From positions 19,779,955 through 19,843,954 of the forward strand of contig NC_089728.1 of NCBI RefSeq assembly GCF_035083965.1: DNA of 64,000 nt, read 5' to 3'. This document shows, in pieces, positions 3,583 to 42,292 of this stretch (its first letter is position 1; each line of letters opens with the position of its first letter). Both the position numbers and the translations under genes were made by a program. The notes under the pieces were generated by a model. It did not search any database and was not told the DNA's origin. It was given only the letters and a program-made list of their open reading frames with translations. This DNA is from Branchiostoma lanceolatum. Taxonomy: Eukaryota; Chordata; Leptocardii; Amphioxiformes; Branchiostomatidae.

Positions 3583-5505
3583 TTAAAAAACCACCAACAT
3601 GAAGTTCAAATGAGAAAATATGATCATCAGTGTTACCGTAGCAGCAGATGCTTCCGGTGTCTGCTCAGGTCCTTTTCTTTGCCTCCCTTTCTTCTTCGTC
3701 TTTGCCAAGGCAACAGCCTCCTTCCTTTTTTGTTGATTTTCTAGCCTTTCTAGCTTTCTTTCTTCTACCTCTTGCATCTTTTTTCTCTTCTTTTCTTCTT
3801 TCTTCCTTCTTCCTAATCTGTTCCTCATGTTTTTGTTTCTCTTTTCCTCTTCTTTTCTTCTAATCTCATCGAGATATTCTTGATCAAAGACGAGTGCCTT
3901 GGGTTTCAATATTTTTCGTTGCTTTGATTCTGGTATTGGCTGAAGTATGTCAGCTACATAGGGCGGCACAATGCCTGCCTTCACGAAAGGGTTTTCAGGT
4001 TGTTTTTGTCCAATATTTCCCCCACAAGCATAACAGGGTGTTTGCGTTGAACTACTTGGGACCTTCTCCTTTCTTTTATCACAAAGGCTTCTTCTGGCTG
4101 CTTCTTCTGCCATCTGCAGCACTTCCTCTTCTATGTCTAGAAGTACACGGCTGTTGTCTTCTTCCTGTTCTTCAGCCTCAGCTACTACCTTTGCCATCTC
4201 AAGCACCTCTTCTTCTACAGGGAGCAGTTCATAGTTTTCTTCGTCTTGTTCTAGATCTGCATCTTCTTCTTCGCCATCTCCTTTTGTTGAACTCACTTCA
4301 TTCAGCTTGAGCCACCTCTCTTTTATCTGAGCTTCATTTACAGGATATAAACCTGACTTCTTGAATCATGCTTTGATACATGCCATAGTGAGGCTTTCTT
4401 CTCTAGTAACTTTGGAGATTTTAGGGAATGATGCTTTCGAGACAAAGAAGTTTGGCTTTGCCATACTTATGTTGTTCACAACGTCCTCAAGCTTGTCTTT
4501 CATTCTAATGAATGGACCCCCAGGGGCATCTAGTGGTTGCAAAAAATTAGTAGCATGGGGTGGTAGACCCAGTCAGATAATGTCATTCTTCACAGCAAAA
4601 TCAATGGCTTTATGGTTTACATGTGTGCTGTGTTGGTCCATTACGACAAGTACCGGTTTTTCAGCTGAACAGAATCTTACAAAACCCTTCTGCAGCCATT
4701 GAAGGAAAATATCAGACTCTATAAAACCTGACTTAGTTGTAGCATACAGTGCATTGGTAGGTCCTTCCAATTTGTATGCTGTACTGGGAAACGCTTTGGA
4801 AAAAATAATGAGAGGTGGTAGAACTGATCCATCTGCACATATACACTCAAGGGATGTAATGTGATCCCGTGTACCCTTCCTAACAGAGGCAGCTGGAGCA
4901 CTCATTCTTGAAAAGGTTACCACCTTTTTCTTGTGGGGATCCAGATCAAACCCTGTCTCGTCTAGGTTGTAGATTCGGTGCGGTTGATTGGTCAAGTCAT
5001 TCTTGGACATTGTTGATGTCAACATTGTGAAGAAATTTTGAATTACCTTCTCATCCACAGCATTCCGCCTTCCCCTATCAAGTGGGTCTGGTTTACGTAT
5101 TGTCAACTTGTTTCTTTTTTTGAACCCCTTCCACCATGTTCGACTGAACCCTTTCTTTGGGTCCACCTTTGGACTCAGGCCATATTCCTTACAGTGTCTG
5201 AGATGTATCTGTAGTGCCAGACTGAAAATCGTCTTTTTGTTTATTGGAAATGCCCTTTCGACTCGATACTTAATGTAGAAGACAAGACTTTCCTCCTCCG
5301 TTTTGGTGAGGATACATGGTCGTCCTTGTTTTGCATCGATAGCACTCCTTCCGGATAACTTGTCACGTACAGTACTGTCCGGTACTCCATCGTTTCTCCC
5401 TGCTTTTGCTGGTGTCAGATTGTTCTCATGAACCTCTTTCAGCACTTCTTCAATTTTCTCATGATCCCAGCAAGTTATCTTCCTTTTTTGTGGGGAACCT
5501 TCCAT
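3583..5505 (-). pseudogene. pogo/Tigger-like transposase interrupted by one TGA
   Basis: A DDE-type DNA transposase of the Tc1/mariner superfamily, pogo group, which cuts and pastes its own element. Translation starts best at the ATG ending at 5505 (MEGSPQKRK). An N-terminal pogo/CENP-B-type helix-turn-helix region (KAGRNDGVPDSTVRDKLSGR) is followed by a second DNA-binding part (FSRTWWKGFKKRN). The catalytic core shows NLDETG (first Asp), VMDQHSTH (second Asp) and LPPHATNFLQPLD (third Asp). The frame is open except for one TGA at 4573-4575, just before the LPPHAT motif. The reading frame then continues unbroken to 3583. The C-terminal part is acidic, then Lys/Arg-rich, with a CYACGG motif. 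The single lesion suggests recent inactivation. I could not place the terminal repeats. The downstream end shares sequence with the short repeats at 1013-1130 and 3010-3170. Confidence 0.85.
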
Positions 5506-5530
5506 GCCCTGAAGATTTGAGTACAAATTG

Positions 5531-6526
5531 GCAAAAAGTTAGCCGGCCTTACAGTTTGCAACCTAGAGAGTCTGTTCGGACTCGCCATCTCCAAATGGCT
5601 CAAAGTAATACACCCATTATAATCTATTCACGTACACAAAGAAAGAAACTTGCTGTTATGAAGATCATTTGAGCAATACATGTAATTCAACCATCAGCTG
5701 CTAGGGTGGGGCTAGGCTCGCAGAACTTTTAACAGCAAAAGCTTCATAGAATGATGCTTTACACACAAAAATTGTACTATAACTAAAGAATATGTTTTGT
5801 TTGTGTATTGTTACCATAAAATTATATACTTTGTAAAGCTGACATCAAACCGACATGGTAATGGAAAATACAATTAAAATACATTTTTAAAAACCTGAGG
5901 TTACTGTGAGTCAAAGTGAGCAAAATCCTTGTACATCAATATCAAGTTCAATTAATATTCCCCTAATCTGGTAATAATCCAAGTTTATGTTTATGTTCCA
6001 TGAGGACAGGTGTATTTCGAATTCTGTGGTGTGGCTAACATTACAAGACAACATTTCTGTTTGATTGTAGTTAAATATAGACCTATATAAAACCTTGGTT
6101 AAATTGATGCCTTCTGTAGCTCCTGTTACTGTATCCACTTCTTCTGTTTCCCCCTCCTCTTGAACTCTTTCTCAATATGCATGGTAGTAGATAAGGCCAA
6201 GCACCTGGCAGCTAAATTCACAGCACAACTGTAATGAGACAAGTCCGTTGGCTTGCTATCATCCAAAAGAGCAGCATACTCATATTTATAAAGACAAATA
6301 TGACAAATAAAATGTCACAATATTCAATAAATGACTCACTGAAATATTTGTGTTTGCCTCCTTCTTAATCCTCTTCATGTGCTTCAGGAACTCTGGTCCC
6401 TACGCATTGTGGTCCTATTTACAAAAGAGTATATTAAAAAACTGCACCAACTGGAAAATCTTCCTTTATATACCAGCATGTAACATTGTACACTGTTATT
6501 TGAACGAGCAGTAGTGAAGTCACTTC
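5531..6526. other. no confident gene; one short minus-strand frame
   Basis: A minus-strand frame from about 6290 to 6145 reads an amphipathic peptide (EYAALLDDSKPTDLSHY onward) ending in a Lys/Arg-rich segment and a TAA. It might be a decayed exon, but I recognise no family and see no clean splice sites. The rest is non-coding in appearance. Confidence 0.35.
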
Positions 6527-15547: not shown

Positions 15548-18500
15548 CTAACGCGGTATCGCACAGAGATGGAACGGATGCGGGGCCAACGTCATCCCAA
15601 AGACGCCCTCAGTGTTTGGAGGAGGAGCGCCCTCTGGCGTCTTGAAGGTGAAGGACTGCAGCATGGTCGAGAAGAACAGGAAAAGTTCCATCTTGGCCAG
15701 CTGCTCAGCAAGACACACGCGGCGGCCTGGAAATAAAGAATGAACAGTAGTGACAAAAATAGACAAGTATGTAATTACTGTTGTGAAATATGTGCAATAA
15801 TAACATATCTAATTAGCTAAGCCTGGTAATTACCTCCTCCAAAAGGCATGAACGACTCGGGCTTGTTGATGACGTTCCCTTCCGCGTCCAGAAACCTTCC
15901 GGGGTCAAAACGTTCCGGATCAGGCCAGTAGGCAGGGTCCATGTGGACGGAGTACAGGTTCATCAGCACCTGGGACAATCAAAGTGAAAATGAGGTTACA
16001 AATACAATTTCTCGAAGAAACTCTCCAAAATGATAAACTTCAAGGAATCATTTCTGCAACGGTACAGAAAGGTTTGAAATCTTATAACATGTATCACGCC
16101 ATACCTTAGTTCCCTCAAGAATGTCGTATCCCTGCACTTTGACATTTTGAGTGGTGGTGTGAGCTGGCAAAGTAACAAGAGTGCGGATCCTCATGGTCTC
16201 CAGCAGGCAGGCATTCACGTAGGGCAGCTGGGAACGGTGAGACAGGGTCGGCAGACTCTCACCAACAACGGCATCAAGCTCCTGCTGTGCCTGTGTATAT
16301 GCAACTGCACCTATATATCACCTAAAGACAGCTTTGAGACGTCTCACAGTGCATAAGACACCGATGACATCGAAATCAAGAATTTCTTGAAAATACATTA
16401 ACCATAATATTATTGTTTAGTAACATAGAAATTTTCACAAGATATTTACACTTCAGATGATATAGAATATCGAACCATCAAAACATCATACCTCCAGCTT
16501 TTGATTCTTCCCACCAGGTAATTACTTTCATCAGTGACTTGCCCACTCATGAACATGGCAGCCGATTTGGAACTTTGCACTGCGGCTCGGAAAGAACGTT
16601 ATTTTTGGAAGCAAACAAAATAGATATTGTCATGTCCTTTAATTGAATTTATCCTGATTAATAAGCACTGCTTGTTCATCAATGTTTTTACAAGCCGCGT
16701 GTTAGGTTCCGAACCGGCTGCCGTGTTCATTTTGACGTCATGAGTGGTCATGTCACTGAATAATGTAATTACCTGGTGAGAAGATCAGATAAGAATCAAG
16801 AGCTGGAAGCACGGTTTCTGATGGTTCAATATTAGATAACATCAGACGGGTATGGATTCGTTTTAAACATTTATATTCATTGAATGATAATAATAACAAT
16901 GATAATGATAATTCAGATAATAAGAAAGTGTTGCATTTTGGCGTATTATGCACTTTAAAATCGCATGAAAAGCAAAAAAATATATTGCGACCTTTGCCCA
17001 GCCCTGACAGAGTCTGACAGAAGCAAACGCTAAATTCGAAGAAGGCAAATTGCTCACAGATACCTTTTCTTGGATGTCGGGGTTCAAAGTCATGTAGAGT
17101 AGACTCCACAGCAGTGTGTTGGTGGTTGTGTCCGTTCCAGCGATGAACAGATTCCCGGCCATGTACAGAACATTCTCCTCTGTCAGACCGTCCACCTTTC
17201 CCTGCTGTTCAAGCTCCAGCAGGCAGAAGTCGAGGAAGTCTCGCGGGTTCTCGCGATCCAGGTGTTCCCGATGGCGAGATATCTCCTCGCTTATCACATT
17301 TATGACCTTGTAGGACGCATCAAGTACATTTATACCGGCTCTATTTACTGAAAAAAATATGCATGTAATGATTTAACATAAATACAACGTTTCTGCTTGT
17401 CATGAAATACCCATAGAGCTTTTGGTAACTCCTCAACAACCTTCCTCATAGCCTGAATGGACTATACTACTCTTTGCCGCATGGCGGCGTTGTGGCAATG
17501 ATGCTGTCCCAAACGTGACTCAGTTTGTCCCGAGGAAGCTAGCTGATAAGTTATCATAACGTCGGCCAGGTAAGTTATAGCAAGGTTGTTTAGTATAAAC
17601 ATAAAGTAATATTCCTACGACCTACCAATCTATTCATGGAACTGTAGAAAGCGTTGTGCAAAGGGCAATGTGACCTACCGACAGGAACAAAACGAAGCAA
17701 TGGGAAGACGCTGATGATCTGCCCAGCTCCGAGTTCAACTAAGAGTGTGACAAACGCCTCCCTCAGCTCTCGGAACGTTTCATCCTCGTAGTCATACCGC
17801 TTCCCGAACGTCATGGAGCAGATGACGTTGGTCACTGTCACGGTGACGTCATGAGCGATGCTAAAGGGCTGTCCGTTGTTTTCTGCAACCTGAATATTTT
17901 TTTAATGTTTTTTTGTTGATTGATTCAACCAGGGGAGGGGGTGTTACATATCGCCTATCAACGGCATTTTTTCGATATTCCCACGGGGGCAATTCCCACA
18001 TTGTTCAACAATCCTAAATTCATAAAATGGCAAAATTAACGCAAACTATAGGTAAACTAGAAAGGCAACATTTGCGAGCAAATACAGCATGTTTAGCTTT
18101 ACTTCTCCCCATGCAAAAAACGGACTGTCCCAACATAATAATGGGCCATTCTAAAATACTGCCGCTGAGAAAAATGATCACCCCTGTTCAAATTTGAGTT
18201 TAAAAACAATTAGTCCCTCATACAGGATTGGAGTCTTCCAGTGACACCTCCAGACAATATGGACCAGTCCAAAAGCATATTCACTTAGCCCTAGTCCTGC
18301 TGCACATTCTTGTTCTGTATGCTAGCCTTGACAATTGCTAGGTTGAGAATAATTCTAGAATGCCTACATTGCACCTGCGTGGTTGTTGTTAAGTGTGGTA
18401 ACTAAAATTGAGCAATATCAAACGAGTACCCTTTATTTCTAAATTTTCTGGGCACTTCAGCAGTGGGGTATATTTTTGATCTGGAGCTCCAGCAGGGTTT

Positions 18501-24500: not shown

Positions 24501-25836
24501 CGCAGCCTGCGGAATACCTGGGCTGTTGTTACTTAGTGGAGTAAATGGATTAGGAGAAGATAGGTCGCGGCAATCGGAGAAGAATGTTGTTGAGAGGTTT
24601 GGCAATCCTCAATTCAGACAGATCCAAGAAACGTTTGAGTTTCTTAAATAGGGATACATACATGAGCTGAAACCTTGGCAATCATGGTGAAACTAATATT
24701 CTTATGCATAAATTTGTCGAGATGGAAACATTCCTAAGAGGTGTTGGACAGACGTATCATGACCCTACAGTTCCTAGACTGCATACCATCGCCATTTATG
24801 TTTTCAATTCAAAGAAATTATGAAAACAATATAGAACAAATATCAATACAAACTACATCGAACAATACATCAAGAAGCCATCGCGAGGAGGGAAAAACAT
24901 GTGATTGGTCTGAAAACGTATCAACAGATTGATGATGAGGATTTCTCCAATACTATGAAAAAACAAATAATATGACAACATATATGCGAGCTGGAAAAGT
25001 CGGGATCCTAAATAGGTCACCATTAGTTTTATTGGTTTCATCTTACCCTGTTGCGGAGACAGTCCACCTCCTCACGGATTTTCTCCTCAATGCTGCCACG
25101 TCCAACCTTCATGCCAAGGCTCCTCATGATGGTGGTGGCAAACCTCTTCCTCTGTCTGAACCCTGTCCCCCAGCGAGCAGCAACAATGTCTACAGCAACA
25201 AAGAACACAAAAATGTAATTTGATATCATACATGCTGCTGAGAAGACATCATGCTGACGCCATTAAGAAAGAAAACTGTAGGTACATACGACGTACGGTT
25301 TTCAGCGTCAGCGACGCTATAGTAGACTGGACTGACAGCAAGGCGTTTTCTGTCACAGGACAGCTGACAAATTGTCCTCGTCTTTTCATTTTTCGTTGCA
25401 CACTTGTCGTACGACATTTGTCAAGAAAGCAAATGATGAATAGAAGTTTACCTTTTCCGAAACCAGTTGTCGCTTCAAACAGGTAGACTGGCGTCCTGGA
25501 CGCGAACAGTTCGGACCTGTCCACGAGCGCGTCCTTGACGGCAGTGTAGCCGTTCAGAACCACGATATCTTCCATCCCCATCCTGACGGTGAAAATGTCC
25601 CCGTACTGTCGCCTCCATGCCGTCAGCTTGAGGTGGGGCGCTCGGCGTAAGGCGAGGAGGTGCCCGAGAACAGGCAAACGTCCTGCCGGGTAAGGAGGCA
25701 GGTTTCTGGGACGCTTGAAGATGACACTTGCCAGGAGGAAAGTCACACAAAAGACAAGAAACGTCTGCAGAGTTAGCCCAGAGATCGGCAAAATCTCCAG
25801 GACGGTCTCAGCTATCCACTGAACAGTACCGGCCAT
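15548..25836 (-). CDS. cytochrome P450, CYP2-like (7 exons)
   Basis: A haem monooxygenase of the microsomal CYP2 clan type, anchored in the ER and fed electrons by P450 reductase; the substrate cannot be told. Exons: 25452-25836, 25047-25189, 17679-17889, 17064-17347, 16105-16290, 15834-15969 and 15548-15726. All introns are GT-AG, phases agree, and the total is 507 codons plus TAG, the normal family length. Visible parts: N-terminal anchor ([20 protein letters not shown]), proline-rich hinge ([15 protein letters not shown]), I-helix AGTDTT near residue 316, K-helix ETMR at 372-375, the PERF region ([10 protein letters not shown]) and haem loop [14 protein letters not shown] with Cys at about 453. 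The usual Gly two after Cys is Ala here. Intron 2 is 7.2 kb and filled with repeats. A relic of a sister copy lies at 13380-13610. Confidence 0.93.
18742..20520 (+). mobile_element. Penelope-like element relic, reverse transcriptase part
   Basis: Lies in P450 intron 2, antisense to the gene. Fragments in order: [20 protein letters not shown] with VVFDRAQND (18800-18945), then after an insertion [18 protein letters not shown] and [20 protein letters not shown] (19870-20030), [11 protein letters not shown] near 20280, RYVDGTW near 20375 and NNRLPFLDT near 20480. The FYGLPxIHK and YVDxTW motifs are characteristic of Penelope-like reverse transcriptases. Here the catalytic YxDD reads YVDG, and stops and frameshifts break the frame, so it is inactive. 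The GIY-YIG endonuclease was not found. Confidence 0.8.
18950..19850. mobile_element. element inserted in the Penelope-like relic
   Basis: It interrupts the Penelope-like frame between DIYTPL and the DPTSKFKRK segment. The left edge carries an 11-G run followed by CTAAAAGTGCC. The right edge carries a 10-G run, then GGTCCAAAGG and a 13-C run, so the ends are partly inverted. The interior is non-coding and includes ATGGCCGATCCAAGATGGCG, also at 13120. The edges are approximate because of the homopolymers. Confidence 0.5.
20530..21480. other. intron sequence, no gene recognised
   Basis: Part of P450 intron 2. It has short frames and nothing I can assign. Confidence 0.4.
21481..22672. mobile_element. 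TIR element with 110-bp arms and an internal minisatellite
   Basis: The left arm 21481-21590 (GAAAGACCAAAACGACAATT to GGTCCGAGGCATTTCC) is mirrored at 22562-22672 (GGAAATGCCTCGGACCGGTT to AACGACAATA read in reverse complement). The arms themselves contain repeated GGTCCGAGGCAT units. The interior includes TTCTCCAAGCAGAGGCTTCG (21590), also present at 23783, a 14-G run and the 23-bp minisatellite. No transposase. Confidence 0.6.
22363..22524 (+). repeat. 23-bp minisatellite, about 7 copies
   Basis: The unit is close to TCTGTCGCGGCGCGTAAGG plus AAAT, with single-base variants and one 22-bp copy. It is CpG-rich, tandem without spacers, and so not a CRISPR-type array. Confidence 0.85.
22673..23780. 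other. intron sequence, no gene recognised
   Basis: P450 intron 2. Overlapping frames at 23380-23628 on both strands carry no recognisable motif. Confidence 0.4.
23781..24655 (-). mobile_element. CR1-like LINE fragment, endonuclease region
   Basis: Minus-strand pieces of an APE-type endonuclease of a non-LTR retrotransposon. [18 protein letters not shown] lies near 24430, typical of the start of ORF2. After frameshifts come [34 protein letters not shown] (the catalytic GDFN-like motif) and [19 protein letters not shown]. The 5' end may start further upstream and the reverse transcriptase is missing. Its left edge is joined to a short repeat (TTCTCCAAGCAGAGGCTTCG) also found at 21590. It lies in sense orientation within P450 intron 2. 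Confidence 0.8.
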
Positions 25837-27839
25837 TTTCTCACGAATGAAGTGGGTGGCCCAGTTAGATGGAAATAAGGCGACCTACGACCTCCATTGT
25901 TTATACTGTTCATCCACGGAACGATCAGGTGCATTGGAAGCTAAGTGAGGCCTGACTGTTAGCAGAACAGATATTATCATCATCCTTTAAGTTAACAAGG
26001 TTCAATGTGCTATCTGAAGAAAAATCTTACATGTACATGATAAAAACGCATTGGAAATGGCACTGTAGTTGATTAAGATACGTTAACTCGCATCTTTCGA
26101 TTGTTTACAAGTAACAGATATTAACAACATGGACCACTTTGGAGATCCCATTTTCTACTCAGGGGTGGACGTGCAAGCTATTTTTTTTACAGTCTGTAAA
26201 GTGTCCTTCAGCTGTAGCCATTATACCACTACGAAATATAGCAGGTCATGAACAAATGTACTAAAGCTTTAACATTGTGTAAGCATTAAGTTGCTGCTGT
26301 TTGGGGTCACTACAATTATGATGTACATGTACCTGTTATCTGAGGCTTGCCCGGAGAATGATTCGGGACCCGCCGTGAGAATGTTTTTTTAGTTCTCGTG
26401 AGAAGTGCCTGATCGAGACTAGCCTGGCCCCAGTCTCTAGGGGGCGGCTTAGGGGTGTTTTTCCGGACCAAGTCTACTTTATTGATTCGTTTCTGTCAGC
26501 CTGTCTACTTAGCTGCCATATAGAATTTCGCAGCCTTTCTACTTTAGCTGCCATAGAGAATTCCAGCGATACCCTAGAGGGCGAACTAATTTAATCAAAG
26601 GCCGTAAACACACCCCGAGTGGACTAAGTTGTCTGGGCGGGCGGGGATCACTCCCACCGCCGTAGAGATATCAGGGAGCCCCCGATGGTAGGCCATTTTC
26701 CAGGCTAGATCGAGGCTGTCTGTTCCAAGCTCTTCCCGGCTACCATAGTCGCTGCCTCGTGCTCCACAAAAGGCCCTTAGCTACTGGTACTATACCGTAT
26801 GCGTGTTGTGTAGCTTTTGGACAGCAACCCATTTTCAAAACTCGATGGATAATGCGCCGTTGACTTCAAAATCGTATATCTTGTTTTGCTAGGCAGGAGA
26901 AAGGAGACCTTGCCTTAGTTCCTCACGCAACTTAAAGGCCGAAGAAATGTCAGCAACATACAATTCAAATAGTTTTAATTTGATGCTTCTAAACTAAACT
27001 GACATAGAATTAGTCATAACAATGATAATAATAAGGACGATGAGTAATAACAAAGCTTACTTGGGTTTTTGACATCAAACTTTGAAGTAACATTTAAAAA
27101 AATGCAAGGAATGGAGGTCAAAATAAAAAAATAACAAAAAAGGATGAACTCATATTGAAGATCCAAAAGAATATCGGCACAGCGTAAATAATAACTGAAA
27201 TTTAGAACAACAAAATGCATCAAAATAAATTCACAACAAGTGTAAAGGAAATATTAATGTACCTAACGCATGAAGTAAAGATGATAACACTTTCCCATGT
27301 CATTTCGGACTCTTTATTGAACATATTTTTGAAGAGTGAAGAATGGAATGTATTTGACCTTCATAACATTGTTCCAACAATGATGACACCTTTACCTGTA
27401 GAGGTGAAAATTTTGCTATACCTCAGGTAAACATAAATATCAAGATTTATACAGAAGGCACACTTATTGGATTAGCTTAATTTGTGTTAATACTTCCCCA
27501 TTTTTGGTTTTAACCATTAAAATTGGTTTAAAAAATGAGCTAGAGAGTCAATTAGCAATGGATACAGGGACAACGAGCACATTCTTTCAAATTATGAAAT
27601 CCAAATACATTCGTATAATATATCATGGAATTGAATTAATGGTGAATAGAATTGCTAAGTCAAATGAAGTATGACTAATAGTCTAGATCGAATTCTTATT
27701 CAAATCATGTTTTTCTACTAGAATTGCCTTAAATAGAATAGGATCTATCGATATTAACAGATACATAAAAGTGTATACTAAAATATGACTACATATTACA
27801 ATATGGACTGCTAATACTGACACAGCTAAGTCAAAGTTA
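25837..27839. other. intergenic, 5' flank of the P450 gene
   Basis: No coding signal. At 26440-26660 there are short inverted or repeated motifs (CTACTTAGCTGCCATA and CTACTTTAGCTGCCATA; CTCTAGGGGGCG and CCTAGAGGGCG) that suggest a small repeat. I could not pick out a convincing core promoter. Confidence 0.4.
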
Positions 27840-30141: not shown

Positions 30142-33100
30142 TCAGTACTGGGGGAAAACAGTGATTGTGTTTGTATTGATTACAACCAAATGTCCTCCCG
30201 GGCCCACTGCAACCCCTGTTGGGTTTTTAGCACGGACAGCGATGTGTCGGACGTACCTGCCCCAGTTGTTGTACATGACAACACGCTGGTTGCGTGGGTC
30301 CACCACCAAGATGTGACCGGAAGTGTCCACACAGATGCCCTCAGGATGATCCAGGCGGCCACCACTCCTCCCCGGTCCTCCGAGCTTCGACACGTACTTT
30401 CCGGTCTCATCATATTCGTACACGAAGTGAGTACGAAAGTCCGACACGAAGATGTTCCCTTTCCCGTCAACGGCGACGTTCATCGGCGACTTCATCCGCT
30501 GCTGCCGCCCGACATCCCACAGGAGTTTGCCATGAGGCTCGAAGGCTTGCACACCACCACGGTTACCGTCAGACCAGGTGACGAATACGTGGTTATTGTG
30601 CAAGCCCGCGGCCATTCCGCGAAGCGCCCCCCGTGGTACAGTGTCAGGGAGGTTAAAGTTGGCTTTGACATTGCCATCCCTGCCGACCTGTACCACGGAG
30701 TAAGGGCTGCCAGGATATCCAATCATTAAGACCCACAGATGGCCATCCCTGTCGATGGACACATCAGATGTGGTCTTTGATGGGTACCCTAGCCCCTGTG
30801 CACCTGGTGGGAACTGGCCCAGGTAAGCGCCCTCCATGCTGTAGACTTGGAGGCGCGCTTTGGACCGATCAGCTACCCAGATCATGTGGTCGGGGGAAAC
30901 TGAAACACCACGTGCGGTGCGCAGTTTTCCAGCCCCCGGCTCATCGCCAAAGGTGATGATCTGTGACCCGCTGCCCTGATCTGTAGAAATAAAAATAATG
31001 CATGATTTCATTTCTTTTCATGATCATGGGACAAATGTTTCATTCCATCAGTCTGGTGTACATTGCCTTATGTCTTATTGAATTGTAAACCTGCTCCTCC
31101 GATCACAGCCCCCCATATGATACAAAGGCATAAATGGTATGTGCTTACATGTTATCAAAACAATAGAAGACACAATGAACAATAGAAGATACAATTAACC
31201 TTCCATGTGCAATTATCATTCCCGAAAGGTGTTGTCCGAAACCGATTACCTTGGGTATGTGTGTGTGGAATATCTAAAATTCATCCCATCTTAATAGTAT
31301 ACTAACGGCTCCGCCCCTTAGGCATCGCCAAAAAGTACCTTCTAATGCATCTAATGACAATGACAATGATGATTACAAGTGAAAGCGCCGGTTACGACGA
31401 GAATAAAGTTGAAATCGGTCGAATTCCTTCTCAGCGCTGTCATTGTCCCTGAGCTACGTATATATATTCGAATGACATTCAATAAGAACTCTTATAACAA
31501 ACCTTTGATGTCCGTGATCGTGGACACTGGTATGTTGATTGGTGTAGGTCCTGCTGCTTCCATCTCCGCCGTGATGCCGTGTGAGTGACCATGTCCATGG
31601 ACCGGATTGACCTGAACGGTAAGAATTAGGGGTAACGTAAGGTGACCAGTTAACGTCCAATTTATTCAAAATGTATTTATCTTAAAACCGCGCGGACAGA
31701 GCCAAAATTTCAAACCCATGGGCAGAAATATCAGCTCTTCTAAAAAGAAAATGCATGGTCTGTAAGTTTTTCTCCGCCTGTTTAACGCCGTGCGAGCATG
31801 TATTTATACTGAGGTATATGATGAAGAATTGTGCTAGGATAACCCATTATCGTCCACTTCTGAATCTTTTCCCTTCTAGCGCTATGCTTGAAGAACATAG
31901 ACCAGAAAAAAATGCACAGTAACTGTCCAAAGTAGTCTGCAGACAAATGATAGTAAAATCACTATGTCTGTCCGGCCACTTGCTTAACGCGATGGAAAAA
32001 AACAATGTTTATCTGTAAATTTCCCCCACATGCGCGGCACGTGGCTCTCACGTGGTAAACGCATGGTCATTATGTTTTACTGTGCAAAAATTAAAGAGAT
32101 GGCTAAGGATCATACTTATGATGTTCTTTATTGCTCATGAGAACAGGCTTTGGCATAATACACCGCGACATGTGGACATGAGCAAAACCGGACGTAAATA
32201 GGTTCTGCACGTAAATAGGTCATGTTACGTTAGGTACACGGTACCGGTAGAAAACCGGAATTTCTTAATGGACCGGTTAAAAAAACGGCCCGTAAAAAAT
32301 CAGTGGACCGGCCTATGGACCGATTGGAAAATTCATAGTACCAGGCTACCGGCAGGCGGCCACATAACTGGTCTAAGAAAATACAAAACAGCAGATTTAA
32401 CGAGTCTTTTTCGAAGACGTTAGCAGTGAATTCTATCTAGAAACACTTAAAGGATGAGTAAACAGACGGCGAGGAGAGTATATTTATAATTTTGAGACAA
32501 AGTGCAAACCTAAGAAATTATATCGTTACAGACATGACGTTTGGAGACTTTTACGTGTGTCTCGCTCTCCAAAATATGATGTACTGCGACACTTCTATAA
32601 TCAGGTACATGTACAGGTCCGGACCTGGACCTGACCCTCTGGACCTGGACCTTGACCGGACCTAAATTTTATGTACCGGTACCCACCCTTAGTTAGAATG
32701 GGTCAAATTGAAGCAAACCATCTTTAGCGCAATAAGCATCAAAACGAAATTCTGTCATTTCAATTTCTTTATACATGTTACGATTTGGTGTCGTCAAAAT
32801 TCCTACATGATGACAAAACTTCCGAACGACACAAATGACTGCTTTTAAGAAATTATGTGTAAAGCTCAACTTCTGTAGAGTTCATATACATTAACGTTGG
32901 TTTTTGGTGTGTGGACTTGAACACAGCTAATAGTCCCTAATAGTCATCTGTTGTTTTATGGTCACCATGGCTGCATTCATGTTAATTGTGCGTCCATCCC
33001 AAAAACAGAAAGAATACTGAGAAGTACTGACCTTGATGACGTCAGCAGATGTCACTTCGTCAGTCTTCATCAGCACAGCGGGCCGAGCATGCGCAGCACG

Positions 33101-36100
33101 ATCAGTGGTTGTACGTCCTCCTCGTGTTGGAGCCGGCTGTAATGGGATAAATAAACAATGGTTGTGCCATCTTTCTTATAATGACATCATCAAAAGTGGA
33201 TTAACATTGAAAAAGTGGTTCTCTGTCTTATATTGGTGCAGTTTGTGCATCCATCCCAAACCCAAGGGATGCTGACAACTACTGACCTTGATGACGTCAG
33301 CAGATGTCACTTGGTCAGTCCTCATCAGCACAGCAGAACTCTTCCAGGCGGCACCGCCGGTGATGTTTGGTCCTGCTGTGGTTGTAGCCGACTGTAAAGG
33401 GGTAAATAAATGAACAATGCTGATTGTGCCATTATTTACATTATATAAGGAAAAATCGTCAAAATCAGATTAATAAAAAAATGTAATCTTATATGGACGT
33501 AGTTTGTCTTTTTTAAATTCATCTACAATCATTTCTGTGTGAAATCAAAACAAAACAGTAAACTTACGGAGTCATGGTTTCCAGGTCCGGAGTTGAGGTG
33601 CGTCAGAAGTACAGGTACCACGATCAGCAGGGTTACCAAGGCAACGGATGATATGGCAACGCATATCAGTAGGCGTGGTCGTGACAGGCGCTGACGTAGC
33701 TGTCCCCAAATGGTACGATTTTCTGGGGCTGAGTTGGACAGAAAAGAAATGCATTATTTGTGTTACGTGTACTTTGTTCTTGTGGTGGCTTCTATCAACA
33801 CAAAGGAAGTTTTATCAGAAAAAATACGATGCTGTTCTGATGTTGTTTCATGTGCAGTCTATCTGGTGTTTAATTCAGCGACTTAATACAATAATTAAAA
33901 ACTGTAAATAATACTGTTTGGATTGATTGTGGTTGTAAGCACTAGCACTCTGTGTGTCAACGGGTATCTCATTATCAAGAGATATTTAAATTGAAGATGA
34001 CTCAACCATTGTTTTGCAGAGCCTACTTTGCATATCAAGCAGCATTGATGGGAACTCATGTTAAGTTTTATCAAGTTTTTCTACATAATGTATTTTGCAA
34101 ACATTGTTTCATATTGAATAAGCATTCATAATTGAAGAAATAGGAGAATACAAGATGGCCAATTCCTTATATTACAATTCTGCATAACACCAACCTGGAG
34201 GCTGAGCCTGGTTTGAGTTGTACATCGGGTTCGGTCGAAGCTGGTTGAGGATGGCCTGTGGATTAAGTAACGGATTCGGCCCAGCCGGCACGTGTTGGAC
34301 CCCACCGGCCTGCCTTCCAGGTCTCGGTGTGGAGGGGACAGGCGGTGCGTTGAGATCATCTCGGTTCATGGCTGGCCCGAGACGCATCCCGAATGACATT
34401 CCATCCTCGTACACGTGCTCGGCGGGGGGTCTTTCTGGTCTCGGGGTAGGGGGGACAGGCGGGGCGCGGCGAGCCTTTCGTTTCAGGGGTGGCCCGAGAC
34501 GCATCCCGAACGTGTCACCATCCTCGTACGCGTGTGTTGCCGGACCACCGGGGCTGACTCCCGGTGGACTATGGACTGCCGGCCCGTCCGAGCCTGTCAT
34601 CTCGGTTTTGCTTGCCCCACCCACTTCTTTTGGAGTTGTTTGTTGGCCATCGTGTGCTACTCGAGAATAATAACAATTCTATCAGCAAATTTTCTGAAGA
34701 CGATTTTGTTCCTAGATGTGTACGAAACACGCTACTATACATTGCGTTGTATATTGTTCATGTCCAAGGCAGAAGCAAATTCACACAAAAATTCAAAGGC
34801 AACGTTTTCGACCAAAAGCAGGGTATTTCCCTCCCATTAATGAAGGTAGTATGAGATATGAATTTTCTACATTGTGCAAAGTAGGTCCTCATTATGATAA
34901 TACACACCCCATTATATTCACCATTATTCACCGGCCTATATTCACTCCATTATTCACACCATTATATCAGTTTAATCATCTTCTCCAGCATGTTAAGACT
35001 CGGCGGGCCTTGCCTTCCAAAAGGCTCATTTAAATATTGTAATAGTATTGAAATGAGCTAAGGTGCGAGTAGAGAGGCTATAATTGGGTGATAATTGCTC
35101 TGGTTTCACTTCCCACTGCTCCTCCTATATTTTGCATTTCTATACGCATCCTGTCCAGACAGAAACAAAGCAGCCAGTTAATTGGCATTGGTCCCTCAGC
35201 AAAATGGATTGAACGATAAATGCACAGAGGTTTGGCGCCAAAAACTGAAAAGGCTTTAGTTTTCCTGTTTTTTTTAATAGTAATTACGTATACTGAACTA
35301 ATTCTAGTGATAGACAAGAGCAAAAGGTGTCAAGACCATCATCAAAAACATGACAGCCTTCTTTGGCACAGATTTGAAGGAGGACCATTTCTTCATTTGA
35401 TACATTAAAGTGATTAAACAATTACTCTCTTTTTTGGTAAATGTACTATACTATCCGTCCTTCGTCATATAAGCTTCGATTGTTTTGTTTCTTACAGAAA
35501 CTTTAATGGAATATGCATTTGTACAACGAGTAGTGCGTCTTATTTAGTGGGTATACGTAGTACGGAAGGAAAAATACAAAATATTTTCAGTCTACACATT
35601 GCCAGACAAGTCAATACACATCTGACTATAGTCTGTTTTGACTCAAAGAAAAAGATTTCCTTTCGAAATCCTCGTTTGGAAAGGTACTGGTAATAAGAAA
35701 ACATGTTGTACCATCAGGAAGGTGTTATGAATGCCGCATATTTTGTGTGAAACGTTAAGCTTTCCCCTGTAATCCAGAGCCTATGTACCGGCGCGCGCTC
35801 CAAGCTCCCCGGGCCTACCCCTCCGCTGACCCTGACGATCGAGGTAGATCGTCGGGATCATCGGAAAGGTAGGCCCGGGGAGCTCGGAGCGCGCGCCGGT
35901 ACATAGGCTCTGGATTCCAGGTAGTAAAGCTTAGACCCCCATATCTGTTCAAAATGCATAGATTATCTCTACTAAACAAACTTTATCTACTGTCTACAAT
36001 AAAATGGTACTCATATGCATCATCTAGTCAATTCAGACTAAGAGCTTTATTACACAACCCCATGATTCTGATCTTGATCCAGACAAATTTGTTGTTTTAG

Positions 36101-39100
36101 TAGCGGTCCGACTATTTACTGGGCTACGCTGGAATACACTAGTACTGTTATGCGCGTAAAGAAGGGTGAAATATTTGAAGGAGTACTGATTAAAACACAC
36201 TGAATTTGGTAGATTTCCACCACTCTTCCTTATAATTAGTAAGTATTACTCTGAGACTTTGCTAACAAACATTGAAATCGCTGATGATAGTTCGGCAGTA
36301 TGAAAGAAGAAGATAACAAAAATGGCAACGGGCAAGTACTAGTATCTCCATGGCCCAGTATTTTCTTATGATCTTTTTATTCCTAGGCCCATACACTTAA
36401 CTTTACACCAAAATATAGCAATCTGTGATGTTACTCATCAAACAAAGACAAAAGCAATGTATTCCCTGTAGATTTCATCCTTCCGGGGTTGTATTTCGGT
36501 ATAGTTGGGACTGTTATGTTATGTAGGAGTGACGCTTACAGTTTGAATCAATTGTTCTGTAGATTCTTTGTTCTGAATTCGAAGGGGTACAAAGTTAAAC
36601 ATTCTTTCCTGTTTCAATAGATGTGTATTAGTGTATTCTATAAGAACATATGCCAAATTTGGTGCAGGTAGTCCTGTACTGTACGTACATTAATTGGCCG
36701 TGCTCTTCTTATGTTCCGATTATGTTTTTCTCACCGCATTTCCACTCTCAGCAATTTTCTTTTTAAACGTTTTACCAACCTTCATGGTTTTACTATAGCA
36801 ACGAGTTAATTCTATATAGATCCCCCTTGACTGGTCAGACAACGTCTTTCCACCAGGACTTGAATGGACACTGTGGTGCTGTCTGCCCTATGCATAAATT
36901 AAGATAATTGCAGATAATGAGTTCTTGAAGGGGTGTGAAAACAATTAATCTATTGAGAGATATGCGGCTGTCAGATTGATGGATGGGATAGGAAGACCAA
37001 ACTCTGAAAAAAGTAGGGTTTTAGACTTAAAAGCCTCAGCCAAGTTCGTAGCTATGGCATACAAAGTTGTAATTGGGCATGAACAAGGCCTAATGATTTA
37101 CTTTCTTTCAAAGTCTTTCCCAAAAATTCATTTCATCTTACAATCTTTAGATACTGGCTGATAAAGTCATGGTTACCCCCCAAAAAATAATCAAAATCAA
37201 CAAAAATATTAATATTTCTCTAAACCTGAGCAGTATTCTAATTTTCCGGAAAGACTTCCTTGTAGCAGCTGACTATCACTACCTCCTGTAAAAAATTCTA
37301 TAGTCCAGGATCTACGCAGCAACTTGGCTAAGTCAATTATTGTAAAAATGATATCGATCCTATATTTATGAATTATGAAAATACCATAACTCTATTTCCA
37401 GTTTCTTATTCATAGTTGAAAGGTGTGGTACCAAGGCAAAGTTTCCTCTAAAATTTCAAACTCATTGGCCTTACGGCACTGGGGATATGGCGGTTTGTAT
37501 CCACCCTACCGTTCACTCTATTTCAGGTCTTAATCAGGCGTGGTCATGTCTTAACTTACTGGAGTTACAAATTGAACAAAACATGAAAGTTTTATCTTAG
37601 CAAAGAAGGTGAACAGGTTATTGTAGCATTTCCTCATGAATCATGTAAATGGGTCATGGATTTGCATGATTTATGTCTACGTATGTTAACCTTTTACCAG
37701 TGGACTAGCCCCCTGCTGTAGAGACTTGCAAAAAGTTGTGTGGCCCAAGGGCCGAGAATCGGAGATGGGCGCCGCCATATGTTCCACTAAGTGGCGCGGG
37801 AGGACTTTAACTTTTTCAATGTTCACCTTTACCAAGCTTCCTAATGCCGCAAGTATGAAATTCCCATGTACTATGTAGTATTGTTAGAACTATCGTAAAT
37901 CATTTAATCGCCGTCATTACAAGTATATTTTTGGGTCATCATTGCTTGGCTGCATAGTTAGTTGTGTCATGTTGTCTATGGTGTGAAATACATCCTTAAA
38001 TTTCGGAGTTTTGACATAAAGGAAATATCACTGATTTTAATATAGGGTTAATGGAAGCGACCGAGGCACTTTATGGGGTGGTTAGAGCAACGACCATGCC
38101 TTATCATACCGTTTAGACCGAAGGAAAGCGGGTTATTAACGTTATTATCATATAGCAATTGTCCATACAGTAGTTAGTAATACTTTGTGTAGTATATGAT
38201 TTGTGTAGTATTTGTCTTAACATGAAATATACAAACAAAACCCCCTGCCATTTAATGGTAACGTTCAAACACCGGGTCTGTACGAAGTTTACAGACCCGT
38301 TTTTGGGTCTGTTTGTAGAATGCAGGCCCGCAAATGGAGCCTTCTGATTGGTCGACGACATCTACCTATATGATATTGAGAAAAAATTCAGAATTTATAT
38401 GATTTGGTGGCTGTCAGTACACTTATTTGTGACTGGACGAGAATAGAGTTAACTGCTATATTGCCCAAACCTGAGTGTATAAGAAGGCTTTGGTAAGTGA
38501 AAACAGCACGAGTGATTCAGAGAACATTGATCTACACCCCTGTGTCACATAAATATAAGAAATGAGCTAGTTCAAGCACTGTTAGTTCTTCAATATTTAT
38601 AAAATAACGCAAGTTATCCGCTATGCAGGAAAAACAAGTCTACAATATACCAATTTAGAGCTTGTGTACGTGACCGGTAAAAAACGATCTCCAAAACGAA
38701 ATAGATATCACAACATTTGGTATTCCTCCATGATAATCAAGAACAATATTTTATACCACAACAAAAACAAGCTCTGTTTCCTAGTCCATTAGTGAAAATT
38801 ACTACTGAACAGTTAATACGAAAATAACCACTAATATGTGGTAAGTCACACTTGTTGTTTATGCATGTAAACCGCAACAACCAATTTCCAGACAATCAGA
38901 GCTGCTATATTCGTGTGAGACCTGTTGAGAACGCAGTTAGGAGAGCTGCACTCTGCGATCAGCACCAGAGACAGAGGGCGTGCGGCCCAAAGTTCGGGAT
39001 GGTGGGTTGGTGGGTGGGCCCGTTGACTAACTACAGCAGATCCTAACAGCCAGATAACCATAGTGATGGCTGACCCACGAGAGCCATCACGTCTAGAAAG

Positions 39101-41140
39101 CGAAGAAATTGAGATGACATCCATTCAGGGAGATTTCGACCGACATTCTCCGAAAGCGGCTAGGAGGCACCTTTGTCAAGACCATACCGAAACACACCAA
39201 ATACCAACACAATCAAACCGCACCTTCCTTAGTTATTTTGGGTAAAATATGAATAAACACGCACTTACATACACACCCAGAAAGTCGTCATAACTAACCA
39301 ACCGCGCCATCGATAGATGCAGAAATTATCGATGCTAAGATATTGTCTGCTTTACAGTGTAGAGAGTGAGTATGAACCTACAAAATTTGTCACCAATAGT
39401 ATAACACTTTGAAGTTGAATCCCCATTGAACAAATTATTGACAGTTTAGTTTCCAAAGTGAGACCGGTGCCTAGCATACCTCTATCACCTTTAACAGTAA
39501 TTGTGGCAAAATTAATAGAACTTGGTGAGGTAAGGATAAGCTAAGACCTAGAAATGCAGTTATCAAATTCATAGAAAAGCATGCTAATATAACCATATCA
39601 TAAAGAGCCAAGGGAAATGCGTCATCAAATTGAAAATCGTTTTGCTTTCTATTTTGAAACTTGATGTAGATGTAAATCTTAAGTGATTATTGGACTCGTA
39701 AAACTGTATGTGAAAATATTGCACGGACCCAGTCAACACAAGTAGTTGGTTTACCTGAATATTTATAACTGGAATGTAAATTATTCACCAAATTGTAGCT
39801 AGCTAAAAAAAACAAGTCTCAAAATCCCTACTTGTAAAACAGGGCTCACAAATATTTCCTCCAAAATAGGTAACATACATTTCAGAATACGGCTGCCCCA
39901 AGAGTAATTGAATTTTTTTTTATACTGCCACATTGATACAGCACTTTAAAGGTGTTTGATATCGCACTTTGTTACTAGTATTGTTGAAATTGGCAATATA
40001 CTAAGGAATATAATGTGTCCACAAAAGGAAGTATCTCATTGAAACTGCGACATGTTGTCGACCTGTTGGCGAGCGATTTTTCAGAGCCATCAACGAATTT
40101 CATCGATAAATAGGCTTTATGTTTTGGTTTTCTTTTCAGTAGGTCTTGTACATTTTGCATGATGTTGCCATTATAAAGTCAGGGATAACACAAATCCAAT
40201 GAAGGTCGCAGCGAGGTCGCCAACAGGTCACAGTCCAGTGAGATACCCGCTAAACGTTTGCTTGTTGGTTTCTTCGTTTGATTTGTATACTTTGTGACCA
40301 GACGATGCAAGCTTCCTTTGTTTCTAAATTTTGTCATGTTTTCAAGACACGAAATATACCCATTTTTCACTTTTCATTTTTTCACTGACATTTCTTTACA
40401 TGCATATTAAGTGTTTCAAACCGGCCTTTACTGCTTTATTTAATTTCGTTCTGTACAACCGATAGTGTTTTGTGAACTAAAACAAATGGGAAAATATGTT
40501 GTCTTTCTGCATGCCTAGGTTTGCGCTATTCCTACAACTGTCAAATTCTGTAATGTTAGATTTAAAACTAACCTGACGGCAGATCTAGGTCCGCGCCGTA
40601 CATCGGATTCAGCGGCATCTTGACGATGTCTTCCTCCCGTCGCCTGTGCCGGTACACACCCGCTACCTTCCCGTCCCTCTGTTTGGGGCGAACGCACGCT
40701 TCCGCCGGGGTCTGTCCGGTTGTATGAGATGGCTCGCAAGGAATCTGTCCGGAGCGAGCAGACGGATTCCTAGAACTTTGTCCGGAAGGACCAGACCGAT
40801 CCACCGAACCTTTTCCGGACGGGCGAAGCATTTCGCCTGGAGCCTGATCGGGCGGACGAAGGGGCAGCTCAAGACTCTCTTCGGGGTAACGAGACGGGAC
40901 CCTGCGGGCATTTGGTCCACCTCTCTTCCTGGATCCATGAGACGGTTGCCCAGGAGTTTGTCCGGATGGACGCCGAGTCGGTCGCCCCATAGGCTGTTTT
41001 GGGCGACAGGACAATACCTCCCAGGGTTTGTCGGGGGGAAGAGGCGATACCTCCGGATCATGGCGGTCGAAATCTCCCTGGATGGATGTCATCTCTATTT
41101 TTTCACTTTCTAGACGTGATGGCTCTCGTGGGTCAGCCAT
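30142..41140 (-). CDS. type II membrane protein with NHL propeller (7 exons)
   Basis: Exons: 40573-41140, 34195-34659, 33568-33728, 33287-33391, 33032-33136, 31503-31611 and 30142-30980. Introns are GT-AG, phases agree, and the total is 783 codons. Cytosolic tail (1-362) is rich in Pro, Arg and Ser, with two NPMY motifs (LNPMYGADLD, PNPMYNSNQ) of the NPxY type read by PTB and clathrin adaptors. Two copies of YEDGxxFGMRLGP are each followed by a PPVPxTPRP SH3-ligand-like stretch. The single membrane span (LLICVAISSVALVTLLIVV) follows RQRLSRPR, so the C-terminus should be outside. A stalk has two 35-codon duplicate exons, an NIT glycosylation site and HGHGHSHG. The C-terminus is six NHL blades (GVSVSPD, DVSIDRDG, GMAAGLHN, NVAVDGKGN, GICVDTSG, GVAVGPGG). 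It may be annotated TRIM2/3-like in databases, but no RING or B-box is present. The ligand is unknown. The join of exon 1 to exon 2 across 5.9 kb rests on phase and motif only. Confidence 0.85.
32223..32690. repeat. CCGG-rich repeat in the NHL gene intron
   Basis: A high density of ACCGGT, GGACCGG and GGTCCGGACCTGGACC motifs (32223-32345 and 32605-32690) contrasts with the AT-rich surroundings. The short units are degenerate and partly palindromic. No coding. Confidence 0.45.
34660..35754. other. intron 1 of the NHL gene, no further feature
   Basis: AT-rich with short frames. The only pattern is CATTATATTCACC and similar motifs (34900-34970) in loose repetition. Confidence 0.4.
35755..35932. 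mobile_element. GC-rich fold-back MITE, 178 bp
   Basis: The left arm 35755-35818 (TAAGCTTTCCCC, then AATCCAGAGCCTATGTACCG and GCGCGCGCTCC) and the right arm 35870-35932 are near-perfect reverse complements around a loop of about 50 bp, itself partly palindromic (GACGATCGAGGTAGATCGTC). It is strikingly GC-rich inside an AT-rich intron. Confidence 0.75.
35933..37696. other. intron 1 of the NHL gene, no further feature
   Basis: AT-rich; nothing recognisable beyond short open frames. Confidence 0.4.
37697..37818 (+). mobile_element. 3' fragment of the tRNA-derived SINE
   Basis: GGACTAGCCCCCTGCTGTAG, GTGTGGCCCAAGG and GAATCGGAGATGGGC match the 3' half of the SINE at 52894-53199. The tRNA-like head is missing (5' truncation). 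Confidence 0.65.
38043..38383 (+). mobile_element. MITE inserted in the inverted copy
   Basis: It begins with GGTTAATGGAAGCGACCGAGG and contains GACCGAAGGAAAGCGGG, TTATTATCATATAG (38142) and, near its end, CTATATGATATTGAG. The paralogous site at 42225-42275 (reverse complement: CTGATTTTGATAAAAG then ATTCAGAATTC) lacks it, which fixes the borders to within a few bases. It also holds GGGTCTGT repeats (38275-38315). Confidence 0.7.
39066..39151 (+). pseudogene. partial copy of NHL gene exon 1
   Basis: An ATG opens a peptide nearly identical to the true N-terminus (MADPREPSRLESEEIEMTSI, then QGDFDRH). Homology ends after about 28 codons, although the frame stays open to 39245. It carries its own copy of the 5' flank, so it could be transcribed away from the gene, but the encoded peptide lacks every later domain. 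Confidence 0.7.
39153..40572. other. intron 1 spacer between inverted arms
   Basis: AT-rich sequence with no recognisable coding or repeat content. Confidence 0.4.
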
Positions 41141-42292
41141 CACTGCGGTTATCTGGCTGTTAGGATCTGCTGTAGTTAGTCAACGGGCGCACCCACCATC
41201 CCGGACTTTGGTCCGCACGCCCTCTGTCTCTGGTGCTGATCGCAAATTGCAGCTCTCCTTACTGCGTTCTCAACAGGTCCCACACGAATATAGCAACTCT
41301 AATTGTCTGTAAATTGGTTGTTGCGGTTTACATGCATAAACAACAAGTGTGACTTACCACGTATTAGTGGTTATTTTTTTACATATTTACTGTAGTAATT
41401 TTCACTACTGGACTAGGAAACAGAACTTGTTTACGGTGTGGTATAAAATCTTGTCCGTAATTATCATGAAGGAATACCAAATGTTGTGATATCTATTTCG
41501 TTTTGAAGATTGTTTTTCATCTGTCATGTACACAAGCTTTCAATTGGCATATTGTAAACTTACTTTTCTTGCAAAGCGGATAACTTGCGTTATTCTATAA
41601 ATATTGAAGAACAACTGAGAGTGTTTGACCTAGCTCATTTTTTTTATATGTACGCGACACAGGGGTGTAGATTAATGTTCTCTGAATCACTCGACGTTGT
41701 TTTCACTTTCAAAAGCCTTCTTATTCAGCCAGGTTTTGGAAAAAGCAGTTAACTCGATACGACGACAGTCACAAATAAGTACTACTGCCGAAACAGCCAC
41801 CAAATCATATCAATTATGGATTATTTTTCTAATTTTCTTTATTTCATTTTATTTTATTTCATTTCAATTTTTTATTGAATGACATTTAATAACAGGACAT
41901 GAAGACGACATAGTCAAGCTGTAGGCTTATGTTTGTGGGCAGAGACCACAGTCAGTCACGTACACAAGCTCTCAATTGGTATATTGTAGACTTGTTTTTC
42001 CTACATAGCGGATAACTTGCGTTATTTTATGAATAATGAAGAACAGCTAAGTGTGTTTGAACTAGCTCATATTTTTATAAGTACGCGACACAGGGGTGTA
42101 GATTAATGTTGTTTGAATCACTCGTGTTGTTTTTACTTTCCAAAGCCTTGTTATAAACTCAGGTTTGGGCAACAAGGGGTTTAACTCGATTCTCCACCAG
42201 TCACAAATAAGTGTACTGACAGCCACCAAATCATATGAATTCTGAATAATCTTTTATCAAAATCAGTAATAGGTCCTTTATGTCAAAACCCT
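41058..42292. repeat. 5' flank of the NHL gene: right inverted arm and a direct third copy
   Basis: 41058-41835 is the arm that includes the real start codon (41138-41140). A third, direct copy of its distal part occupies 41940-42292. ACACAAGCT, ATAACTTGCGTTATT, GCGACACAGGGGTGTAGATT and the CAGTCACAAATAAGT block occur in both in the same order. The gene's putative promoter region therefore exists three times within 4.3 kb. No clear TATA box or initiator was identified. Confidence 0.8.

Follow-up and report, generated by a model that had tools for sequence, protein, structure and literature searches.

A lancelet gene predicted to encode a type II NHL-propeller membrane protein with a proline-rich, NPxY-bearing tail

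Could an NHL propeller resembling those of TRIM proteins form the outer part of a small membrane receptor? This question is raised by a minus-strand locus (41140–30142) in a 64,000-nucleotide stretch of the lancelet Branchiostoma lanceolatum genome (contig NC_089728.1, positions 19,779,955 to 19,843,954; the whole stretch is called the window, and positions are counted from its first letter). From the sequence, the gene is well-formed and its product likely receptor-like in layout: the N-terminal 360 residues or so are rich in proline and lead into a single, strongly hydrophobic span, after which come a stalk of 118 residues and a six-bladed NHL propeller. The best overall explanation, with a probability of roughly 0.55, is a type II surface NHL protein with a docking and endocytic-sorting tail. 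The protein would present its TRIM-like propeller on a short stalk as a recognition module, through which a ligand could be bound. The long cytosolic N-terminus, probably disordered, could serve for docking and sorting: the NPMY motifs would recruit PTB-domain adaptors, repeated YEDG and proline segments could bring in further partners, and the protein would be internalised.

Gene model and membrane topology

Seven minus-strand exons are joined in one frame into a 783-residue product without an internal stop. All six introns are GT–AG and the phases are consistent (0-1-1-0-0-0-1 at the exon starts). The donors score 8, 7, 6, 8, 8 and 7 of 9; all acceptors but that of exon 2, which is weak, are rich in pyrimidines. 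The features lie on the strand and at the places given in an earlier note made from the sequence:

41140–40573 (minus): exon 1, start codon and residues 1–189, proline-rich, first NPMY motif (178–181); donor CAG/gttagt, phase 1
34659–34195 (minus): exon 2, tandem YEDG...FGMRLGP...PPVPxTPRP unit and second NPMY motif (333–336); weak acceptor
33728–33568 (minus): exon 3, the sole membrane span, preceded by a juxtamembrane segment rich in arginine
33391–33287 (minus): exon 4, stalk, 35 residues with one N-I-T sequon, phase 0-0
33136–33032 (minus): exon 5, duplicate of exon 4 with the shared end VTSADVIK, phase 0-0
31611–31503 (minus): exon 6, stalk with a His-rich stretch, STITDIK at its end
30980–30142 (minus): exon 7, whole six-bladed NHL propeller and stop codon

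No ATG precedes the acceptor in the frame of exon 2, and at 34.7–42 kb just one ATG-started, phase-1 exon with a strong donor was found, exon 1 (four in-frame ATGs share this donor). The join of exons 1 and 2 is thus supported by sequence logic, the splicing being predicted and not taken from transcripts. Since the search for a first exon covered those of at least 20 codons with end phase 1 and a donor of at least 8/9, another first or middle exon with a weaker donor may exist. The frame of exon 1 itself closes a few bases past the donor, so the alternative would be a protein of about 190 residues made without splicing. A tblastn search of the whole protein within the window returned only its own exons and an inverted copy of the start of exon 1, and an Rfam search of the DNA gave no matches at the gathering threshold.

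Hydropathy reaches its maximum (3.0) at residues 364–382, and 19-residue windows above 1.6 start only at 361–375. Five arginines are found in the 15 residues before the span; from the span to the end of exon 3 there is no lysine or arginine and one aspartate. No signal peptide is visible by eye inspection (no predictor was run). By the positive-inside rule, these features place the N-terminus in the cytosol and the propeller outside the cell, so that type II topology is likely, and the single span and outward-facing propeller proposed in the earlier note stand as a prediction. A Pfam match of the open reading frame with the span to the cuticle-collagen N-terminal model, with E 0.005 and 17.3 bits, fell short of the cut-off (23.5) and was discarded as a generic hydrophobic-segment match.

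Propeller and tail

The NHL domain is matched by Pfam with E 3e-20 and 71.6 bits (cut-off 20), and the overlapping propeller models SGL and DUF5128 are likewise above their cut-offs; the Pfam teneurin NHL model scored 22.8, below its cut-off of 27.1. The AlphaFold2 model of the propeller has a mean predicted local distance difference test score (pLDDT) of 82.6, two of the five models being poor (mean pLDDT 54), and contains 24 strands. In the model these are read as six four-stranded blades closed by an N-terminal strand, in agreement with the six blades seen in the earlier note. The propeller appears TRIM-like by sequence, its best matches being TRIM3, TRIM71 and TRIM2 and its nearest solved sequence relatives TRIM NHL domains. 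RNA-bound relatives rank high in the fold comparison. Phytases and lactonases, also in the fold list, were rejected as having the propeller arrangement alone in common with it; no vertebrate or fly teneurin chain is among the fold matches listed, which does not exclude a relation. In a collection of prokaryote or virus genome contigs, four stretches matched the pattern of the NHL domain and none was confirmed, a result uninformative for animals.

The absence of RING and B-box domains, also claimed in the earlier note, was borne out by Pfam searches of exons 1 and 2 and of the three minus-strand frames read through stops at 31.0–64 kb (E 0.001 for some segments, 0.01 for others): no match was found, though short or split exons could escape. 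The sole match in exons 1 and 2 was a sub-threshold PT repeat. As a positive control, the read-through search returned the NHL exon at 47.8 bits, compared with 71.6 when this exon is searched by itself, and two P450 exons (24–39 and 12–27 kb); since these were recovered at lower scores, the method works but sheds score. EGF, YD-repeat and other adhesion modules gave no Pfam match on the minus strand over the same range. On this strand no EGF was matched between the span and the propeller, with which the frame ends, and Pfam detected no catalytic domain in the tail.

The tail, put at about 360 residues in the earlier note, contains 62 prolines in 362 residues, and from this composition it is probably disordered. 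NPMY occurs at 178 and 333. Two NPxY motifs in the first 362 residues compare with a shuffled mean of 0.033, and a fraction of 0.0004 of 5000 shuffles reaches two; the motif was picked after viewing the sequence, so this figure is indicative rather than a strict test. The YEDG...FGMRLGP...PPVPxTPRP unit of exon 2 is repeated in tandem with a period of 117 bp, in 1.8 copies that match at 81%. The YEDG and PPVPxTPRP segments, which were noticed earlier and come in pairs, are therefore counted as one origin. PP.P is found four times in the tail (shuffled mean 1.7, fraction 0.089). In a viral contig collection, exon 2 gave five matching stretches, none of them confirmed, which is uninformative for animals.

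Repeats and neighbours

The following features accompany the gene in the window:

38364–39152 (plus) against 41054–42274 (minus): inverted duplication with about 87% identity; in intron 1 the copy, at 38381–39152 (plus), takes in the upstream region and roughly 29 codons from the start of exon 1
35756–35933, intron 1: imperfect palindrome, 87% self-complementary over about 178 bases, which may be a small mobile element
41520–41828 and 41952–42255: upstream of the gene, a directly repeated segment of about 300 bases (83% identity)
16866–17372 and 25252–25884 (minus): cytochrome P450 exons (Pfam p450), downstream of the gene
4576–5538 (minus): transposase-like open reading frame, DDE_1 above the cut-off and a sub-threshold Tc5-type DNA-binding match

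The inverted copy is probably a truncated duplicate outside the mature transcript. The arms of the inverted duplication could pair around the start codon in the pre-mRNA, and the copy could serve as an opposite-strand promoter. At 42001–64000, six frames read through stops contained no Pfam domain at E 0.001; weak or split domains could escape.

Known systems and competing explanations

According to passages of PMC6297184 and PMC5851990, teneurins are type II proteins in which a cytosolic domain, typically with proline-rich SH3-binding sites, is combined with an extracellular six-bladed NHL propeller. The single span, the N-terminal cytosolic proline-rich domain and the extracellular propeller are shared by the lancelet protein, in which the orientation is predicted. 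As far as these passages go, an NHL on a receptor is not new in itself, teneurins preceding it. However, teneurins carry EGF repeats, an FN-plug, a YD shell and C-terminal toxin-related domains, none of which was found here. The lancelet protein is not a teneurin, since the propeller is its last domain and neither an EGF nor a YD-repeat domain was detected.

Unlike the TRIM-NHL proteins (TRIM2, TRIM3, TRIM71, Thin, Brat), the lancelet protein has no detected RING or B-box and instead combines a span in the membrane with its long, proline-rich tail; judged by these two domains, it is not a TRIM. Mycobacterial PknD, considered here from entry titles, shares an extracellular NHL propeller but has a kinase domain. 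The statement of the earlier note that NHL domains are best known in TRIM proteins or secreted enzymes overlooks teneurins, which are type II receptors, and bacterial PknD. Endocytic NPxY receptors share NPxY in the tail (two copies here, on the predicted cytosolic side), but not a hydrophobic Y-5 residue. Among the predicted proteins of lancelets are many NHL proteins annotated as TRIM2/3-like that have one span and an NPxY-bearing N-terminal tail. Among the titles and abstract openings listed in a literature search, mostly lancelet-focused, none described this architecture outside teneurins, which is not evidence of its being unpublished.

Several observations weigh against a type II surface protein with a docking and sorting tail. 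TRIM NHL proteins act inside the cell, and the propeller is TRIM-like. A sequon (348) lies on the predicted inner side; with another (407) on the outer side, sequons do not decide the topology. The Y-5 residue is Pro in the first NPMY and Arg in the second, neither being favoured in the usual PTB consensus, which has a hydrophobic residue at this position; binding of Dab- or ARH-type PTB domains may therefore be weak. SH3 core patterns (two of class I, overlapping, and two of class II) were dropped as evidence, because shuffles reach equal counts (fractions 0.44 and 0.42), and Y..[ILVMF] (YxxPhi) motifs number zero in the tail against a shuffled mean of 0.95. The score of the exon 2 acceptor is equalled by 25% of minus-strand AGs. 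In addition, teneurin NHL loops are disulphide-bonded, with five disulphides on the top face in the relevant passage of PMC5851990, whereas the propeller here has one cysteine.

The same layout could belong to a surface adhesion molecule. Like the teneurin NHL, its propeller would bind either its own kind or a partner on an adjacent cell; its tail would anchor the cytoskeleton, and NPMY would be incidental or endocytic only. Passages of PMC5851990 report that the teneurin NHL sets homophilic specificity, and the tail is proline-rich, as is typical of teneurin tails according to part of PMC6297184; the lack of Pfam matches to adhesion modules on the minus strand at 31.0–64 kb and a stalk of only 118 residues speak against this function, which is judged rather unlikely. 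Another possibility is that two genes are present: the tail and membrane exons would form one, and the NHL exon would be part of another that encodes a TRIM-like protein, cytosolic or RNA-binding. This could explain the TRIM3, TRIM71 and TRIM2 matches and the high rank of RNA-bound folds. It appears improbable: no RING or B-box was matched on the minus strand at 31.0–64 kb (coiled coils were not searched for), the exons for span, stalk and NHL keep a consistent phase and have mostly good splice sites, and the charge of the NHL domain is merely mildly positive (29 K/R against 23 D/E).

Little weight is likewise given to a recently rearranged or decaying paralogue of a fast-evolving family with little or no expression. 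The inverted partial copy in intron 1 and the tandem duplications in exon 2 and in exons 4 and 5 would fit such decay. The last 18 codons of exons 4 and 5 differ by six replacement and no synonymous changes, so no purifying selection is seen on this stalk segment since duplication. Nevertheless, the frame is open over 783 codons, and the start of exon 1 differs from its copy, over 27 codons, by four synonymous changes and one replacement, a constraint-like pattern in small numbers.

For the type II surface protein, a wider view is possible, if tentative: it could represent a family of minimal NHL receptors apart from teneurins. In such a family, a propeller of the TRIM class would have been placed on a stalk at the cell exterior and combined with an NPxY tail, and invertebrates would thereby have gained a set of propeller-based receptors for endocytosis or recognition. 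If the proposed reading is true, a class of propeller familiar chiefly from RNA regulators and cytosolic ubiquitin ligases would serve as the ectodomain of a small adaptor-docking receptor. Metazoans would then have, beside teneurins, a second type II layout for an NHL receptor, one of a size that suits whole expression and ligand tests.
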